The translations under genes and the position numbers were made by a program. Shown here one piece after another: positions 14,389-21,741 of a stretch of 64,000 bases of DNA. The notes below the pieces were generated by a model that did not search any database, was not told where the DNA came from, and saw nothing but the letters and a program-made list of their open reading frames with translations. Position 1 is the stretch's first letter. The number at the start of each line of letters is the position of its first letter. This DNA is from Thiomicrorhabdus sp. 6S3-12 (GTDB lineage: Bacteria > Pseudomonadota > Gammaproteobacteria > Thiomicrospirales > Thiomicrospiraceae): positions 62,001 to 126,000 of the forward strand of contig NZ_JAGETW010000008.1 in assembly GCF_017571475.1 (NCBI RefSeq), in the 5' to 3' direction.

Positions 14389-16077
14389 TTAAAGGGCAGC
14401 GATAATCTTATCGGCAACGCGGAATGCGTTGGCGTAGATGGTCCAGGTATAGGTCACGCTGCCGCCGGTCGGCATAAAGCTGCCATCGGTCACATACAGG
14501 TTTTCGCAGTCGTGCATACGGCAGTCTGGATCCAGTACCGAAGTTTCGATCTCGGTGCCGAAACGGCAGCCACCGGCCATCAGATTGGCAGGAGGTGATC
14601 CGCTGACCGACCAGTTGATATTTTTCGCCCCCATCTGCTGCAAAACGCCGGCCGCCTTGTCAGCCAGATAGTTTCCGACTTTCAGGTCATGTTCGTGGTA
14701 GCCGAGTCGCACTTTCGCCACCGGCTGATTCCAGCGATCTTTTACTGAAGAGTCCAGCGAAACAAAACAGTTGTCGGTCGGCAGCCAATCGTTAAACACT
14801 TCGAAATTCAATGTCTGCTGGCCGCTAATCGCCGATTTTATACGTTTTTGCAGCGTCTTACCCCACAGCAGATTACCGTCGTCGTCCCATTTCTGCGGCA
14901 GCGCCTGTGGCAAGGCGTTTGGATGACGCAGCAGAAAATCGATCGTTCCGCCTTTGACTCGCCCACCCAGTTCTTCGTCGTCGATGACATACCACTTCTG
15001 CAGGTTCCGGTTTACAAACGGGCCGCGCGTTTGCAGCGCCTTGATATTTTCGGGATCCAAATCGGCATACAGCAGATCACCACTGCCCGCACCGCCGGCG
15101 GAAAACAGCAGATTTTTACCGACCTGATCATGATTATTGCCAAGTCCTTTGAGGTGCTTCGGCCCGACGGAAGCAAGCAGCAGTCGACTGGTTTCTACGG
15201 CCTGACAGGCAACCACAAATATCTTTGCCGTTACTTTCTGCACCTGCTCTTCGGCATTCACAAACTCCGCTTCGACCACTTTACCGTCGGCTCCGGAAAT
15301 CAGGCGGTTCACTTTGCAATTATCCCAAATATGGCACTTACCGCTCTTGACGGCACGATCCAATAGTGCAGCGCGTGAGCTGCCTTTAGCACCCGAAGCA
15401 CAGCCGTAGCTGCCGCAAAAACCGGAGTATTCGCAGCTGCGGCGCCCCTTATCCGGCGTGGAAAGAATCGCCCGCGGCGTCGGCAATGGCTGATAGCCAA
15501 GCGCATCACACGCACTCTCGATCCGCTTGACGATCGGATGTTCAGCCGTCGGTTTGTGAGGAAAATCCTCTGTCGATCGCGGCTCGGCAAACGTATGATC
15601 AACCGCATGACCGGATACGCCAACCTCGCTTTCCACCAACGTATAGTAGGGTTCAAGGTCATCATAAGAGATCGGCCAGTCTTCTATATTGGCCCCTGCA
15701 ATAGCACCAAATTCCGATTTAAGACGGAAATCCTGCGGTTTGAGACGATAGAAAAAACCGCTCATCAGATTACTTGAACCGCCGACCATATTGCCGTTCC
15801 AGAAATTCCAACCCGACTGCGAAGTCGCTTCGGAATACCAGTCGCCGTAATCGTTTCGGGTTTCCAGAACATGTTGCTCGTCTGCCAGATCGGGGGTAAA
15901 AATCGAATGTCGACAGCAGCTCAATTCATCTTTGAAAAAATGCTCTTCCTTAAGCCACGGTCCTTTTTCCAGGACTAAAACCTGATAACCGGCCTGAGCC
16001 AACCGAAAGGCCACTGGACCGCCACCGGCACCGCTACCGATCACACAAACATCAAATTCCGGAATATGCGCAGCCAT
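14389..16077 (-). CDS. GMC-family FAD-dependent dehydrogenase, large subunit
   Basis: A 562-residue flavoprotein of the glucose-methanol-choline family, closest in layout to membrane-bound gluconate/sorbitol dehydrogenase large subunits. The dinucleotide fold is at the N-terminus (CVIGSGAGGGPVAFRLAQAG), followed by VVGGSSN-like FAD contacts, and the C-terminal GMC region reads NLYVTDGSFMPTGGSVTYTW. It has no signal peptide of its own. Its partner, five bases upstream in the same operon, carries a twin-arginine signal, so export as a complex is likely. The substrate is not evident; proximity to the BCCT gene hints at an alcohol such as choline, but the genes are on different transcripts. Confidence 0.88.
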   Translation of the reverse strand: MAAHIPEFDVCVIGSGAGGGPVAFRLAQAGYQVLVLEKGPWLKEEHFFKDELSCCRHSIFTPDLADEQHVLETRNDYGDWYSEATSQSGWNFWNGNMVGGSSNLMSGFFYRLKPQDFRLKSEFGAIAGANIEDWPISYDDLEPYYTLVESEVGVSGHAVDHTFAEPRSTEDFPHKPTAEHPIVKRIESACDALGYQPLPTPRAILSTPDKGRRSCEYSGFCGSYGCASGAKGSSRAALLDRAVKSGKCHIWDNCKVNRLISGADGKVVEAEFVNAEEQVQKVTAKIFVVACQAVETSRLLLASVGPKHLKGLGNNHDQVGKNLLFSAGGAGSGDLLYADLDPENIKALQTRGPFVNRNLQKWYVIDDEELGGRVKGGTIDFLLRHPNALPQALPQKWDDDGNLLWGKTLQKRIKSAISGQQTLNFEVFNDWLPTDNCFVSLDSSVKDRWNQPVAKVRLGYHEHDLKVGNYLADKAAGVLQQMGAKNINWSVSGSPPANLMAGGCRFGTEIETSVLDPDCRMHDCENLYVTDGSFMPTGGSVTYTWTIYANAFRVADKIIAAL

Positions 16078-16082
16078 TATTT

Positions 16083-16745
16083 CTATCCTTTGGTTAGACG
16101 TTTTTCGTCATTCTGACGATAGAGCCGCTGACGCTTTTGATAACCGAGCTCATAATAGCGATCCTGTGCCTGCGGACGCGGAAACCCCGGAATCTGCCCG
16201 ATCGCTTTCCATCCCGAACCATCAGGATTACCGCCGTATACAGGATCTGTCACCAGGGCTTCTATCAGATTATCAATGATTAACGACAACCAGTTTTCTC
16301 CGGCACGGCTTTTGACGATTTTCTGCAACAGCGCTTCTTTTTCGGCATAGTCCAAAGCGACAAAACGTCGACGATAATCACTGATCGACAGATCGTTTAA
16401 CCACCCTACACCTTGAAATAAGAACTCTTGCTCCTCATGATCGGCCAAAGGTCGTTCGAGTTTCTTTTGCAGATAGTTTAAAGCCTTAAGCTGTTTAGCG
16501 CTCAAACCGCTCTCGGATGGCGGAAAAAGGTGATTTTGCACCGCATCAAGACTCAACCACGGATCCTGTAACGCCTTCTCCGAGCCGATATCTGAGTGCT
16601 CTGTAACAGAGGTTTGCGCATACACCGAAGCAGGCACGCCCGTTACGGGAAAGATTGAAGCTAATTTCAGCAGCTGACGCCGATACAAAGAAAACGCTTT
16701 CTTTTCATTAGTGTTTTCATGCAATTTAAATGGAGAATCACTCAT
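16083..16745 (-). CDS. Gluconate 2-dehydrogenase subunit 3-like protein with Tat signal
   Basis: A 220-residue small subunit of the kind that accompanies GMC dehydrogenases. The N-terminus has a twin-arginine motif (LYRRQLLKLASIFPV at about residues 20-34) and a signal cleavage region near YAQT. The body contains DAVQNHLFPP, YLQKKLERPLADHEEQEFLF and VTDPVYGGNPDGSGWKAIG, the usual subunit 3 landmarks. It is the first gene of the operon. In known systems this subunit stabilises the flavoprotein and supplies the Tat signal, and a cytochrome c subunit takes the electrons; no such cytochrome is encoded in this operon. Confidence 0.85.
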   Translation of the reverse strand: MSDSPFKLHENTNEKKAFSLYRRQLLKLASIFPVTGVPASVYAQTSVTEHSDIGSEKALQDPWLSLDAVQNHLFPPSESGLSAKQLKALNYLQKKLERPLADHEEQEFLFQGVGWLNDLSISDYRRRFVALDYAEKEALLQKIVKSRAGENWLSLIIDNLIEALVTDPVYGGNPDGSGWKAIGQIPGFPRPQAQDRYYELGYQKRQRLYRQNDEKRLTKG

Positions 16746-17331: not shown

Positions 17332-17823
17332 ATGAAAATAACCAATCTAGCCCTACTCACTCTGTTTTTAGGCGTCACTTTTGCTCTGCCTAACATCTCC
17401 GTCGGAGACTATGCCAAAAGGCAAGACAGTCATAAAGTTGTCTACCATATCAATTACGACAGCTATGAGAAGCAAACCTCGGCCTTAAGAAATATCCAAT
17501 ACCACCTTGACGAAGTCGGTGTAGAAAACATTGATCTGCGTGTCATATTGGATGGTGACGGCCTTTCCATGCTTCTGAAACCGGAAGCCCTGCCCCGTTT
17601 GCATAAGTTTAAAGCCGGAAACGCGACACTGACGATGCAACAGAAAATCGACCAACTGAAACTTAACGGCGTAAAGTTCAATATCTGCCGTAACACGGTC
17701 GAAGGCTACCATATCGACATCAATAACGACCTGTATGATGTGGATAAGAAAGACATTGTGCCCAGCGGAGTGGCGGAATTGGCCAAACTGCAGTCAAACG
17801 GTTTTGTTTATCTGAGACCATAA
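17332..17823 (+). CDS. Secreted DsrE-like protein 1
   Basis: A 163-residue protein with an N-terminal hydrophobic signal segment (LALLTLFLGVTFAL) and one DsrE-like domain: KVVYHINYDS as the first strand, LRVILDGDGLSMLLKPEA, the conserved cysteine C119 in GVKFNICRNT, and the ending VPSGVAELAKLQSNGFVYLRP. DsrE-fold proteins with this cysteine carry or sense sulfane sulfur in known cases. It is a close paralogue of the protein at 19894 and similar to the C-terminal part of the anti-sigma factor on the opposite strand. An in-frame TTG at 17320 would add four residues; neither start has a strong ribosome site. Confidence 0.85.
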   Translation: MKITNLALLTLFLGVTFALPNISVGDYAKRQDSHKVVYHINYDSYEKQTSALRNIQYHLDEVGVENIDLRVILDGDGLSMLLKPEALPRLHKFKAGNATLTMQQKIDQLKLNGVKFNICRNTVEGYHIDINNDLYDVDKKDIVPSGVAELAKLQSNGFVYLRP

Positions 17824-17842
17824 CCTTTCGACCATGGTCTCA
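17813..17842. terminator. Hairpin between convergent DsrE and anti-sigma genes
   Basis: TGAGACCAT and ATGGTCTCA pair perfectly over nine bases around a 12-base loop and span the DsrE stop codon. No T run follows on either strand, so it is a non-canonical terminator at best. Confidence 0.45.
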
Positions 17843-17847
17843 TAAGC

Positions 17848-18546
17848 TCATATTTTGATATAGCTCCAACCGGAATTCAGTCGTTCGGCCATCTCATCCA
17901 CTGCCGGTTTATTGTGTTTTACCTTATCAATCAAATGGATTGGCTCGCCTTTCAGGCTCGCTCTTTGCAAGGCTCTTTGACAAGCATACAGCGCTATCCC
18001 GCTGTATTGCTCCAGAAGTTCGCTTAATTCTGCATTATTGGGGCTGTTTACATCGAACAGACGAACACCATCGGAATTGGTAATCACATCCACCTTAAGC
18101 GACGGGCCTTTTTCCGCATACAAATCTTTAATTTTGTGCAAAGCCGCAACTTGCTTACTCAAATCGTCCGAGTCGATATGGATAATGAATTTATCCGTCG
18201 CGGCGCTTTCGTTAAGTGCAGATGCCTGCATATTCTGCAGATCGGCTGAATGCTGTAAAAACCCGACGTTGCCTCCCAGCAGAATCCCCATAACCAATGC
18301 TGCTGCCGCAGCCTTGGGAACATTCCAAAAAGGCTTTTTAGCTGCCGGCAAGGAGAAATCGGGTTCCGGTACTGCAATATCCCCGTAAGCCTGCCTGATG
18401 CTTGATTTAAGCTCGCGTAACTCGGCAACTCTCTGAATAAGCTCGGCATCCGCTTCAATACAACGTTCGACTTCAAACCGTTCTTCCGTTGACAGCTGAT
18501 CATCAACATAAGCCTGAAGCTGATAATCTTCAATTTTATTGCGCAT
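17848..18546 (-). CDS. Transmembrane anti-sigma factor with periplasmic DsrE-like domain
   Basis: A 232-residue protein in three parts. Residues 1-57 look like a cytoplasmic anti-sigma domain (LQAYVDDQLSTEERFEVE, helical and acidic, without a zinc HxxxCxxC motif). Residues 78-97 form one membrane helix (AAAAALVMGILLGGNVGFL). Residues 118-232 match the neighbouring secreted DsrE proteins: first strand DKFIIHIDSDD, cysteine C189 in GIALYACQRA and the ending MAERLNSGWSYIKI, which aligns with LAKLQSNGFVYLRP. Its ATG follows the sigma stop codon by two bases. I infer that the DsrE domain senses a sulfur or redox signal and controls release of the sigma factor. Confidence 0.8.
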   Translation of the reverse strand: MRNKIEDYQLQAYVDDQLSTEERFEVERCIEADAELIQRVAELRELKSSIRQAYGDIAVPEPDFSLPAAKKPFWNVPKAAAAALVMGILLGGNVGFLQHSADLQNMQASALNESAATDKFIIHIDSDDLSKQVAALHKIKDLYAEKGPSLKVDVITNSDGVRLFDVNSPNNAELSELLEQYSGIALYACQRALQRASLKGEPIHLIDKVKHNKPAVDEMAERLNSGWSYIKI

Positions 18547-18548
18547 TT

Positions 18549-19121
18549 CTAGTGTCCTCTAAAAGCGACGACTTTAGTGTGAAGGTCTTGTTTCTGTAGC
18601 AACTCTTTGAGCTTCTGACGTCCACGTGAAATCCGGCTCATTACAGTGCCGATCGGTGTTGCGGTAATATCGGCGATTTCCTGGTAACTGAAACCCTGCA
18701 AATCCGCCAGTACAATCGCTTCCCTCTGATCATAGGGCAGTCTCGCAACCGCCCGATAAAGCATCTCGTGCCGTTGTTTCTTTATCAACTCGCTTTCGCT
18801 GCATTCGTGACAGTGATGGGCATCGATTTCCGACTCTTCCACCCACTCCCAACGTTTCTTAAAACGCATATCGTCAAGAAACTGATTTCGCATGATCTTA
18901 GCAAGCCATGCTTTTAAATGCTGCAAACTGCTTAGATCTTCACGTTTTTCAAGCGCTTTTAACATGGTTTCCTGAACCAGATCCTGAGCGACTGATGGAT
19001 GGTGACACCAGGCGTAGGCCAGGCGGTAAAGACTCGCATATTGCTGCTTTAAAGCCTCGTTAAACTCTCTGCGGTCTCGCGCGGCGCAAAATAAATTTGC
19101 GACTTTGCTGCTTAATTTCAT
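18549..19121 (-). CDS. ECF (extracytoplasmic function) RNA polymerase sigma factor
   Basis: A 190-residue group 4 sigma factor. Region 2 spans about residues 19-90 (SLYRLAYAWC, DLVQETMLKALEKRED, LKAWLAKIMRNQFLDDMR) and region 4 about residues 120-175 (LPYDQREAIVLADLQGFSYQ, EIADITATPIGTVMSRISRG). A cysteine/histidine-rich linker (HHCHECSESE) joins them. I chose ATG 19121; a TTG at 19142 in the same frame is possible. The gene is followed after two bases by its membrane anti-sigma factor. A promoter-like GGAAAAAA...TCGTTT element lies 54 bases upstream, consistent with self-activation. Confidence 0.92.
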   Translation of the reverse strand: MKLSSKVANLFCAARDRREFNEALKQQYASLYRLAYAWCHHPSVAQDLVQETMLKALEKREDLSSLQHLKAWLAKIMRNQFLDDMRFKKRWEWVEESEIDAHHCHECSESELIKKQRHEMLYRAVARLPYDQREAIVLADLQGFSYQEIADITATPIGTVMSRISRGRQKLKELLQKQDLHTKVVAFRGH

Positions 19122-19174
19122 TTTTGTGAATCCGCTTTCCAAAATTGTGAGTTTTTCGATAGTAATGGAAGACC

Positions 19175-19202
19175 AAAAACGATTGCAACAAAAATTTTTT
19201 CC
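19175..19202 (-). promoter_or_regulatory. ECF-type promoter candidate for the sigma/anti-sigma operon
   Basis: On the minus strand the sequence reads GGAAAAAA, then 11 bases to ATCGTTTTT. It mirrors the plus-strand element at 19292-19320 (GGAATAAA ... TTCGTTTAA), with one base less between the GG and CG. ECF sigma factors typically use a GGAA-type -35 and a CG-containing -10 box. Confidence 0.55.
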
Positions 19203-19291
19203 GGCGCTTAAGCGAATTTTTATAAAAATATTAACGATTTATAAAATAAAAAATACTGCTCGATAAATAAAAATTACTGGTCTAAAAAGTT

Positions 19292-19320
19292 GGAATAAAC
19301 TCCTGTCCCCATTCGTTTAA
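19292..19320 (+). promoter_or_regulatory. ECF-type promoter candidate for the DsrE-porin operon
   Basis: GGAATAAA followed, after 12 bases, by ATTCGTTTAA; 35 bases before the ATG at 19356. It shares GGAAxAAA and TCGTTT with the divergent element upstream of the sigma gene, which suggests both operons answer to the adjacent ECF sigma factor. Confidence 0.6.
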
Positions 19321-19355
19321 CCAACAGGAAACTCAAAAAAAGGAGCTAACCGACC

Positions 19356-19850
19356 ATGAGAAAACCTCTGCCGATCAAGGCACATACATTCGCCGTCTAC
19401 CGCTTATTTATCCAAAGCAGTCTGGCTTTTCTGTTCACCCTGCTTTCAACCACAGCGATGGCTGCTCAGGAAGAAGCGCCTCTGCCGGATACATTCGCCG
19501 AGCATAAGGTCGTGCTGCAGATCAGCGACGCCGATCCGAAAAAACAGGTTCTGGTATTGAATGTCGCCGCCAACCTGCAACGCTATTACGGCCCGTCGAA
19601 TCTGGACATCGAAGTAGTCGCCTTCGGCCCGGGCGTCCGTCTGATGCTTAAAGACAATGCTAATGCCGCACGCATCAAATCCATGATCAACGCCGGCGTT
19701 CGTTTCAGCGCCTGCTCGAATACCTTGCAGAATTTCGCAAAAATTCTCGGCCAGACCCCGGAAATCATCGATGGCGTACAAAAAGTTCCTGCCGGAGCCG
19801 GACGTATCCTGCAACTGAACGCTGCCGGATGGCAGATTTTAAAACCTTAA
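19356..19850 (+). CDS. Secreted DsrE-like protein 2 (divergent)
   Basis: A 164-residue protein with a clear signal peptide ending STTAMA at about residue 36. The mature part keeps the DsrE-like pattern: HKVVLQISDADPKKQ, a strand IEVVAFGPGVRLML, cysteine C120 in GVRFSACSNT and the ending VPAGAGRILQLNAAGWQILKP. It is less like the other two secreted copies, so it may have a distinct partner role. AAAGGAG precedes the ATG. It is the first gene of a three-gene operon (DsrE, DsrE, porin) behind an ECF-type promoter, facing away from the sigma gene. Confidence 0.85.
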   Translation: MRKPLPIKAHTFAVYRLFIQSSLAFLFTLLSTTAMAAQEEAPLPDTFAEHKVVLQISDADPKKQVLVLNVAANLQRYYGPSNLDIEVVAFGPGVRLMLKDNANAARIKSMINAGVRFSACSNTLQNFAKILGQTPEIIDGVQKVPAGAGRILQLNAAGWQILKP

Positions 19851-19893
19851 AAATAAAACAAATAAAACAAGCTTACTTAGAGGAATAATCACT

Positions 19894-20388
19894 ATGAAGA
19901 ACCCAATTCTACGAATCCTGATGCTGTTTTTATCAGTCTTTTCTGTGTGGACAGCAACAGCTTCTGCAGCCGAAACCGTCAGCAAATACGGCACACAAAA
20001 AGTGGTCTACCACGTCAATTACGACGACCCTAAAAAACAGTCGTCTACCCTGCGAAATATTCAAAACCATATCAATGCCGTCGGTGCAGAGAACCTGGAT
20101 ATCAAAGTGGTCATGCACGGTAATGGGTTGTCCATGCTCATCAAACCGGAAGCGCTAAAAAATCTACCTAAATTCAAGGCCGCAAACGCCAATCAGGGCA
20201 TGATTCAGAAAATCGACCAGCTAAAAATGCTCGGCGTCGACTTTAATGTCTGTGCCAATACGGTCAAAGGGCGCCAAGTTAATGTCGCACGCGATCTGTA
20301 TGATGTAGAAACTTCCAACATTGTTCCCAGCGGCGTTGCCGAACTCGCCTATCTTCAAAGCAAAGGTTACCTCTACCTGCGCCCTTAA
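19894..20388 (+). CDS. Secreted DsrE-like protein 3
   Basis: A 164-residue protein with a signal peptide ending TATASA at residue 25 and one DsrE-like domain: KVVYHVNYDDPKKQSSTLRN, VVMHGNGLSMLIKPEALK, cysteine C120 in GVDFNVCANT and the ending VPSGVAELAYLQSKGYLYLRP. It is strongly similar across its whole mature length to the protein at 17332, so the two are recent paralogues on either side of the sigma/anti-sigma pair. It sits 43 bases after the first DsrE gene, with GAGGAA before its ATG, and 66 bases before the porin gene. A periplasmic sulfane-sulfur role is inferred from the fold and cysteine. Confidence 0.87.
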   Translation: MKNPILRILMLFLSVFSVWTATASAAETVSKYGTQKVVYHVNYDDPKKQSSTLRNIQNHINAVGAENLDIKVVMHGNGLSMLIKPEALKNLPKFKAANANQGMIQKIDQLKMLGVDFNVCANTVKGRQVNVARDLYDVETSNIVPSGVAELAYLQSKGYLYLRP

Positions 20389-20454
20389 TTCTTCCCAAAA
20401 CCGTTAACTAACAACCAATTTAAAAAATCCTTAAATACAAGGAAGGGGATTCCT

Positions 20455-21741
20455 ATGCCTATTAAAAATCAAATTCTAAAAAACACACTGCTTATCGCTT
20501 TGGGAGGAATTGCGCTAAGCCAGCCAGCGCAAGCGGCCAACTGGCTGATGCTACAAGGGACGGAAGCCGAACATCAGGCACCAAGGGCAAAACTCTGGGG
20601 CTTTGTTCAGGCTGAGTACCAAGCAACCGACAACACCAAACTCAAAGCCGGACCTTTTGCCGGAGAGGAAGCCGCTTTTAACCAGATGGCGCCACAACTG
20701 GAATCCGCACAGGGATTCAATGTCCGCAGAGCACGTATCGGGGTGCGCGGAAACAACCTGCCTCTGGACTCTAAAGTAAACTACTTTTTACTGGCCGAAT
20801 TCGGTAATAACGGTATCACCACCGGCGGGGATGCTTCCCGGGGCCAGCTTACCGATGCCAGTATTACCCTGAATCATATTCCGGGAGCACGTATCCGCGC
20901 CGGACTGTTCAAAACTCCGGGCGCCGAGGAAGGCTTGCAGGCGATAGGTGTCTTTAACTATATCAATTTCACTAATGTCACCGACCGCTTACTTTTAGAG
21001 CGTTCGTTTGACAATGCCACTGGAAATACCGGACGTAATGCGCCCGTCGGCGCTTTCCGCGATACCGGGGTACAGATTTTCGATGCATTCCGCTATGACG
21101 ATTGGGAATACAGCTACGCAGCCATGCTGGGTAACGGAAACGGCATCTCGATGACTGATAATGACAACAATCAAGACTATTACCTGTATGTTTCGGCGGA
21201 AAAAATATTTGCCGAAAGTAAAGGGCCTCGCCGTCAGGGCGTCAAACTTTTCGCCTGGATGCAAGATGGTAAAAGAACATTGGATGACGTTGGCGAAGTG
21301 GACCGCAAACGATCCGGACTGGGGAGCACTTATTTCGATGGGAAATACCGTCTGGCAGCCGAATATATCACCGCCGACGGCATGATTTATGGAGGCACGA
21401 CGGGAGCGGGTACGCCTGATGACGGCGCCACGTTCAGTGTTCAACCGGACGAAAAAGCTAAAGGCTATTATGTCGATCTGGGCTATCGCGTCATTCCGAA
21501 TCTGGAATTGAATCTGCGATACGACTTTCTGGACAGCGGTACCGAAACCGATGCCAACCATCGCGAATTCACAACCACTACGCTCGGCGCACAGTATTTT
21601 GTGAATAAGAAGACTGCTCTGAGAATCAACTATGAAATGCGTTCGATTGGCGCACCGGATCTGTCGGATGCATCACCGGTACACGACATCCTGGACTCGA
21701 TCGACGACCGTGTGTCCGCTCAGATCAGTGTCGTCTTCTAA
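20455..21741 (+). CDS. Outer-membrane porin, phosphate-selective porin (OprO/OprP)-like
   Basis: A 428-residue protein with a signal peptide ending QPAQA at residue 27 and a barrel of the OprO/OprP group: FNVRRARIGVRGNNLPLDSK, ARIRAGLFKTPGAEEG, repeated aromatic strands, and a terminal strand RVSAQISVVF ending in phenylalanine as barrel-assembly signals do. Ribosome site AAGGAAGGGG precedes ATG 20455. As last gene of the DsrE-DsrE-porin operon it may bring an oxyanion, perhaps a sulfur compound, into the periplasm; the substrate is inference only. A strong terminator follows. Confidence 0.85.
   Translation: MPIKNQILKNTLLIALGGIALSQPAQAANWLMLQGTEAEHQAPRAKLWGFVQAEYQATDNTKLKAGPFAGEEAAFNQMAPQLESAQGFNVRRARIGVRGNNLPLDSKVNYFLLAEFGNNGITTGGDASRGQLTDASITLNHIPGARIRAGLFKTPGAEEGLQAIGVFNYINFTNVTDRLLLERSFDNATGNTGRNAPVGAFRDTGVQIFDAFRYDDWEYSYAAMLGNGNGISMTDNDNNQDYYLYVSAEKIFAESKGPRRQGVKLFAWMQDGKRTLDDVGEVDRKRSGLGSTYFDGKYRLAAEYITADGMIYGGTTGAGTPDDGATFSVQPDEKAKGYYVDLGYRVIPNLELNLRYDFLDSGTETDANHREFTTTTLGAQYFVNKKTALRINYEMRSIGAPDLSDASPVHDILDSIDDRVSAQISVVF

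Follow-up and report, generated by a model that had tools for sequence, protein, structure and literature searches.

A probable Sox-linked sigma/anti-sigma switch with a periplasmic DsrE domain in Thiomicrorhabdus sp. 6S3-12

The window analyzed here is a stretch of 64,000 nt from Thiomicrorhabdus sp. 6S3-12 (contig NZ_JAGETW010000008.1, positions 62,001-126,000), a member of a gammaproteobacterial genus of sulfur oxidizers, and all coordinates given are positions in this window. We examined a locus built around an extracytoplasmic function (ECF) sigma factor and a membrane anti-sigma factor, for which an earlier reading of the letters (hereafter the original prediction) had proposed a signaling and sulfur-handling role. 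All six open reading frames of the locus were confirmed. The sigma gene (18549..19121, minus strand) encodes a protein of 190 amino acids matching Sigma70_r2 (7.5e-13) and Sigma70_r4_2 (5.2e-18), with the ATG at 19121 as the most likely start and a TTG at 19142 as an alternative. The gene of the anti-sigma factor (232 amino acids; 17848..18546, minus strand), described here from an AlphaFold2 model and 83 aligned homologues, starts at 18546 after a gap of two bases behind the sigma stop (18549), as had been predicted. Divergent from the sigma gene lie two genes for secreted single-domain DsrE proteins of 164 amino acids, each with one cysteine, C120 (19356..19850 and 19894..20388, plus strand), followed by a gene for a 428-residue outer-membrane porin of the Porin_O_P family (20455..21741, plus strand; Pfam E 5.4e-10). 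A third DsrE gene (17332..17823, plus strand) is convergent with the anti-sigma gene. The proposal that three secreted DsrE-like proteins flank the pair held, since all three exceed the Pfam DsrE cut-off (26.7 bits for the 19356 product and 39.9 bits for the 19894 product). The AlphaFold2 model of the 19356 product has a mean pLDDT of 92 and matches the solved DsrE-type structure 1l1s with a Foldseek E of 2.0e-10.

The N-terminal part of the anti-sigma factor (approximately residues 1-77; 18316..18546, minus strand) was recognized as a cytoplasmic anti-sigma domain by NCBIfam and family-profile matches, the NCBIfam match covering residues 10-61 with an E of 1.6e-6, which is under the family cut-off. 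A transmembrane helix is predicted from hydropathy at residues 79-97 (18256..18312, minus strand); the highest 19-residue value is 1.93, while the best value outside residues 70-110 is 0.29, leaving a single hydrophobic stretch. The N-terminal anti-sigma domain, the single predicted transmembrane helix and the position of the gene beside the sigma gene are the features of a class I membrane anti-sigma factor, and the sigma factor would be held by the N-terminal domain. The only cysteines of the protein are residues 29 and 189, and the HxxxCxxC motif that marks the zinc-binding anti-sigma (ZAS) subgroup is absent.

The periplasmic part of the anti-sigma factor is a DsrE domain that starts at about residue 117 (residues 117-232; 17851..18198, minus strand). 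With the window protein alone, Pfam DsrE scores 19.8 bits (E 9e-4), just under the cut-off of 22.7. BLASTP against the 19356 protein gave an E of 1e-11 (28% identity over 123 columns), profile-profile comparison with the secreted DsrE proteins gave an E of 1.5e-10 (probability 96.9), and the anti-sigma family profile matched the solved structure of MTH1491 (1l1s) over residues 118-231 with an E of 3.3e-17; because of these three matches, the likeness to the secreted proteins is not attributable to chance. The predicted fold leads to the same assignment: the AlphaFold2 model, built from 11 anti-sigma sequences only, aligned with 1l1s over residues 117-232 with a VIA-align Z of 16.3 (Foldseek E 7.4e-8), followed by YchN (Z 13.1), chain A of TusBCD (12.1) and chain A of DsrEFH (12.0), with ST0148 also among the matches (Z 12-16). 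The ten best solved structures, taken as DsrE-type although one is an engineered protein, had Z values of 11.0-16.3, and the next row had 7.0. From residue 121 onwards the pLDDT of the model is 79-92 per 10-residue block, with the exception of 66 at residues 211-220, while the model is poor over the linker and the membrane part. The original prediction of a DsrE-like periplasmic part was therefore correct apart from its start, which had been placed at about residue 118.

Cys189 (codon 17980..17982, minus strand), the sole periplasmic cysteine, aligns with a cysteine of MTH1491. All 83 full-length homologues have it, including those with only approximately 20% identity to the window protein, and none of them had a second periplasmic cysteine; Trp227 was invariant in the same set. 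The selection of these homologues relied on matches to the complete protein or its profile, an approach that favors sequences keeping conserved positions, and an anti-sigma factor without a DsrE domain (L081) and the anti-sigma gene in two pieces (L061, also L092) were excluded from the cysteine count. The expectation of a single conserved cysteine in orthologues was thus borne out. The free DsrE proteins at the loci kept their cysteine in 92 of 93 cases. Alignments of the anti-sigma factor comprised 39 of 41 full-length sequences (A1, without L052 and L057) and 10 of 11 named loci plus the window (A3).

In a quick tree with few columns, one branch (SH-aLRT 93) separated the 83 anti-sigma domains from the 93 free DsrE domains, which fits a single fusion followed by long inheritance. 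An anti-sigma match was found in 43 of 95 related genomes, some of these matches being partial or to free DsrE proteins only, and the named relatives were mostly Thiomicrorhabdus (9 of 11 loci). Of 369 genomes sampled from the class, 151 matched the profile. Carriers were counted as full-length matches among those listed, which gives at least 66 of the 369 genomes, with 40 family labels. Five genomes with partial anti-sigma matches (G316, G148, G321, G414 and G356), three of which have SoxB, were counted as non-carriers. Plasmid records were considered as a source of relatives and rejected, as they gave weak partial matches only, the one in Rhizobium being to a free DsrE protein. At this place on the Rhizobium rhododendri plasmid (L195:3959-5075), whose record carries no annotation, the secreted free DsrE protein is directly followed by a thioredoxin-like secreted protein, as judged by eye.

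The gene order was compared at 42 loci, comprising the window, its relatives and outliers, with some genomes contributing two. A DsrE gene was divergent from the sigma gene at 32 of them, a porin gene at 32, and both at 30, while at five loci the DsrE gene was instead located downstream of the anti-sigma gene. Three loci had neither DsrE nor porin, and two of these lie at a contig edge. We then turned to 40 loci of other families, a subset of the full-length matches listed that was taken mainly from the top. Both DsrE and porin genes were found beside the pair at 24 of these, a porin gene only at two, a DsrE gene only at five, and neither at nine. The proposed fusion and its gene order thus recur well beyond the window. 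At one locus with both genes, the neighbors of the system include a true SoxB (830 bits), thioredoxin-like and HbpS-like genes, and a gene for a TsuA-like transporter. No other family of genes in the clusters listed was seen at more than six of the loci from outside the window's family.

Several arrangements at these loci were recorded in addition. At three of the nine loci without DsrE and porin, a SoxB-like protein of the 5'-nucleotidase family takes the usual place of the DsrE-porin operon, divergent from sigma (L182:4494-6626, 710 amino acids; L168:2586-4760, 724 amino acids; L155:1-1362, cut; lengths in the order listed); the best NCBIfam match of these three proteins is SoxB, far under its cut-off. 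Two loci (L158:4569-7523 and L190:3560-6446) each carry two sigma/anti-sigma-DsrE pairs in tandem, and a pair without DsrE or porin (L174:2361-7056) has two rhodanese-type genes and one for a MauG-like di-haem peroxidase on its flanks.

In an alternative reading, the anti-sigma factor perceives its ligand by proxy: its DsrE domain would not itself bind the sulfur compound but would assemble with the secreted DsrE proteins and read their sulfur-loaded state, with the operon products feeding back on the switch that makes them. The likeness between the anti-sigma domain and the first DsrE protein of the operon in the BLASTP and profile comparisons is in line with such an assembly, the sensor domain has its paralogues among the target genes, and of the 82 loci that have the pair, 66 also encode a free DsrE nearby (37 of 42 and 29 of 40). 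DsrE-type proteins are often oligomers. TusBCD is heterohexameric according to its entry title (2d1p). At 16 of the 82 loci, however, the pair occurs without a free DsrE gene in the stretch examined, although some of these are at contig edges; in addition, the window anti-sigma factor shares no more than 24-28% identity with the three free proteins, and the two kinds of domain fall on separate sides of one branch. We regard sensing by proxy as possible but somewhat unlikely.

The DsrE-DsrE-porin operon is preceded by an ECF-type promoter (19292..19319, plus strand) that is conserved across relatives. It consists of the -35 element GGAATAAA (19292-19299), a 14-base spacer and the -10 element CGTTTA (19314-19319), and is the sole perfect match in the window. 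Relatives have GGAATAAA-N13/14-CGTTTA, or a sequence close to it, before the divergent operon, and the spacer between the two conserved elements varies. The CGTTTA variant is that of the window's genus; in other families most sites read GGAATAAA-N14-CGTCTA, often with one facing each way, in which case the sigma factor would also drive itself. GGAATA-N15-17-CGTY, a pattern set after the sites were known, was present in 59 of 77 sigma upstream regions (81 minus four that were too short), whereas 100 first-order Markov shuffles averaged 0.36 such regions and never exceeded 2. Among the regions of the window's family, the site points towards the operon in 27 of 31; in other families it points towards the operon in 24 of 45 and towards sigma in 28 of 45. 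These data suggest that the window sigma factor uses promoters of the 19292-19319 type.

The original prediction had expected the flanking genes, 17332 among them, to respond to the sigma factor, which the conserved promoter supports for the DsrE-DsrE-porin operon but not for the third DsrE gene. No ECF-type promoter, with up to three mismatches allowed, was found between 9350 and 18460, and only two of the 42 loci have a convergent third DsrE gene, namely that of the window and L035, where the anti-sigma factor is 93% identical to that of the window; sigma control of 17332 was rejected on these grounds. The 17332 product is 55% identical to the 19894 product, and its gene, which lies beyond the anti-sigma gene, probably arose by recent copying and is probably outside the regulon. 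Upstream of it (14389-16745), the window contains genes for a GMC oxidoreductase and a Gluconate_2-dh3 protein, each found in four compared loci. A fourth, apparently secreted DsrE-family protein is encoded elsewhere in the window's genome (L080:6352-6861; G000:C17, approximately 165,350-165,860); no sigma gene was recognized beside it, the neighbors there not having been scanned.

The co-occurrence of the system with sulfur oxidation was assessed in the 369 class genomes. SoxB was present in 65 of 66 carriers (among the matches listed) and in 86 of 303 other genomes (p 9e-29). By family label, it was present in 39 of 40 carrier families and in 39 of 141 others, the family total of 181 being the highest label encountered. 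The sole carrier without SoxB (G113) has DsrA and RuBisCO. Flavocytochrome c sulfide dehydrogenase (FCSD) was found in 28 of 66 carriers and in 86 of 303 others. The sulfur link proposed for the system is thus supported by the co-occurrence with SoxB. These results also bear on the idea that the DsrE domain is a structural leftover, acquired by a fusion that provided a stable periplasmic domain, and that the switch actually answers envelope stress or misassembly of the porin, relayed by proteolysis as in RseA. Class I anti-sigma factors are often cleaved, and the target operon does encode an outer-membrane protein. An inert domain would not be expected to keep an invariant cysteine and tryptophan in 83 homologues of as little as approximately 20% identity, nor to show such a tight link to SoxB, and the lack of a further recurrent gene family in the clusters listed from outside the window's family also speaks against this idea, which we consider improbable.

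Taken together, we consider it likely, with a probability of roughly 0.7, that the locus encodes a Sox-linked sigma/anti-sigma switch with a periplasmic DsrE sensor that drives the production of secreted DsrE proteins and a porin. The computed evidence comprises the architecture, the fold, the single invariant cysteine, the gene order, the promoter, the co-occurrence with SoxB and the single branch of the fused domains. In the proposed mechanism, the ECF sigma factor would be kept bound by the cytoplasmic N-terminus of the single-pass anti-sigma factor until a sulfur group is loaded at Cys189, either a thiosulfonate derived from thiosulfate or tetrathionate or a persulfide from the Sox cycle. 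In an archaeon, DsrE3A is reported to accept thiosulfate from tetrathionate in the form of a cysteine thiosulfonate (PMC4175335). Loading of Cys189 would alter the anti-sigma factor or inactivate it proteolytically, and the freed sigma factor would recognize GGAATAAA-N13/14-CGTYTA and transcribe the divergent DsrE-porin operon and, outside the window's family, often its own operon as well. The porin might then admit a sulfur anion, while the secreted DsrE proteins might carry or buffer the sulfur compound.

Several observations weigh against this switch or limit its scope. Apart from the nine of 40 further loci that lack both DsrE and porin nearby, the site in the direction of sigma was found in none of the 31 upstream regions of the window's family. 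GGAATAA-N14-16-CGTTW gave three matches in the window's genome compared to four for the reversed control, and in 32 genomes of the genus there were 103 matches to the promoter pattern compared to 112 for the reversed control. As the pattern is not enriched genome-wide, the promoter evidence lies in its fixed position, and the DsrE-DsrE-porin operon is the sole supported target; a large regulon was rejected, since the genome-wide search returned the locus plus background. SoxB is also not alone in its association, as DsrA (51 of 66 carriers vs. 65 of 303 others) and RuBisCO (59 of 66 vs. 115 of 303) follow the system too. Among RuBisCO-positive genomes only, SoxB was found in 58 of 59 carriers vs. 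62 of 115 others, and autotrophy alone is thus insufficient as a cause. The genomes are related and the p-values accordingly overstate the association, but the near-absence of carriers without SoxB remains plain. All 15 tested genomes of the window's family without the system, each at least 90% complete, have SoxB (one of them, G037, has a weak profile match of unlisted span), showing that the system is not required for Sox oxidation. Sulfide was rejected as a candidate signal, given that FCSD is rarer in carriers (28 of 65) than in others (55 of 86) within SoxB genomes. Two further points, the ranking of the S. meliloti sigma factors by the window protein and the anti-sigma factors of that species, are given below.

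The proposed switch has its closest known counterpart in the ECF26 group, whose members answer sulfite, thiosulfate, taurine or tetrathionate at promoters with -35 GGAAT and -10 CGTC (PMC3511301, PMC6527743). We compared the system with four ECF factors of Sinorhizobium meliloti. The pair linked to sorT was taken as RpoE4 from its neighbors (sulfite oxidase, cytochrome, pseudoazurin), and the pair linked to Lipoprotein_15 should be RpoE1, the name again being assigned from neighbors. Another sigma match (H9) was rejected as an ECF26 factor; it is annotated beside rsiA1 and is presumably the general stress factor RpoE2, and its record also held the sorT-linked and Lipoprotein_15-linked pairs. 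This S. meliloti record, CP090106.1 (L194, L201-L203; 3.72 Mb), is labeled as plasmid pSymB, carries rsiA1/rsiB1 together with the sorT locus, and may be a mislabeled chromosome or a fused replicon. Upstream of the sorT-linked sigma gene lies GGAATAAG-N14-CGTCTC, which has the same form and spacing as the promoter described here. The sigma family profile scored the sorT-linked factor with 128.3 bits and the three others with 107.7-110.6 bits. The window sigma factor alone, however, ranked RpoE2 first (86.1 bits) over the sorT-linked (74.7), the Lipoprotein_15-linked (68.8) and the fourth factor (55.8). The anti-sigma family profile could be aligned with the S. meliloti anti-sigma factors over their N-terminal part only, by profile positions 5-91 and 6-108 for two of them and mainly 11-46 for a third, and none of the three compared shows a DsrE match.

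These comparisons are relevant to the possibility that the system senses sulfite, a toxic by-product, or thiol-oxidizing stress, much as ECF26 factors do in Sinorhizobium and Starkeya, and that its operon is protective rather than catabolic. Sulfite reacts with cysteine-bound sulfur. The shared promoter consensus and the preference of the family profile for the sorT-linked sigma factor would agree with this possibility, and sulfite is the signal in the known ECF26 systems of these two genera (PMC6527743, PMC3511301). Against it stand the first rank of RpoE2 with the window sigma factor, the different sensor part of the S. meliloti anti-sigma factors, and the finding that no sulfite dehydrogenase was among 12 neighbor proteins scanned, a small part of all neighbors. 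We thus judge a sulfite or stress sensor to be unlikely, and the Sox-linked switch remains our preferred reading. Within it, we tentatively propose, as a rather doubtful extension, that the anti-sigma factor and the secreted DsrE proteins share one assembly, that sulfur loaded by the Sox cycle onto the free DsrE proteins is handed on to, or read by, Cys189, so that the carriers made under the switch would act as its signal, and that this loop has been kept across approximately 40 family-level groups.

Little is known of the means by which sulfur oxidizers perceive thiosulfate and its intermediates (PMC10451225), and sulfite sensing by anti-sigma factors was named as needing work by the authors of PMC6527743. 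The system suggests a widespread means of sensing extracytoplasmic sulfur compounds and supplies a regulatory setting for secreted DsrE proteins and their partner porin. Because the sensor part is a delimited domain whose one cysteine is invariant, and the promoter and the small target operon are likewise defined, the system is amenable to simple testing.

The original prediction had regarded the system as probably new, and this applies to the sensor part but not wholly to the logic, since the promoter corresponds to the consensus GGAAT/CGTC published for the sulfur-responsive ECF26 factors (PMC6527743). No paper joining DsrE and an anti-sigma factor was found in the literature searched, the main ECF classification (NAR 2021) being outside its scope, and a DsrE-bearing anti-sigma sensor of this kind is apparently undescribed. 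Like the ECF26 pairs of S. meliloti (RpoE4, RpoE1) and Starkeya novella (SigE), the system has a sigma-anti-sigma operon and a small local regulon, but the ECF26 targets are sulfite dehydrogenase or Lipoprotein_15/DUF305 proteins instead of DsrE proteins and a porin (PMC3511301, PMC6527743). In contrast to the ECF26 pairs compared, nearly all hosts of the present system have SoxB. Most ECF26 pairs are recorded with a COG5662-type anti-sigma factor (PMC3511301), which the window protein is not; because of this difference, we did not file the system as a member of ECF26. It is possibly ECF26-related, with a promoter of the ECF26 kind and a new sensor part.

The porin is weakly similar to ExtI of selenite/tellurite operons (NCBIfam NF040900; E 1.8e-5, 23.7 bits), but at a score far under the cut-off of 150 it was not filed there. 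By its match to the family profile, its fold and its conserved cysteine, the sensor domain belongs to the DsrE/DsrF family of the MTH1491 type (PF02635; 1l1s, 2pd2), from which it differs in being anchored as the periplasmic part of an anti-sigma factor, with its free copies secreted. An ECF factor, sigma-2, activates the sox genes in Arcobacter butzleri, where there are several overlapping regulons, and DsrE does not occur in the text describing it (PMC3445524). SoxR and sHdrR are regulators tied to thiosulfate oxidation, as proposed here, but they are ArsR-type repressors responding to sulfane sulfur (PMC10451225, PMC12423496), whereas the system of Thiomicrorhabdus would rely on a periplasmic one-cysteine sensor carried by a transmembrane anti-sigma factor.

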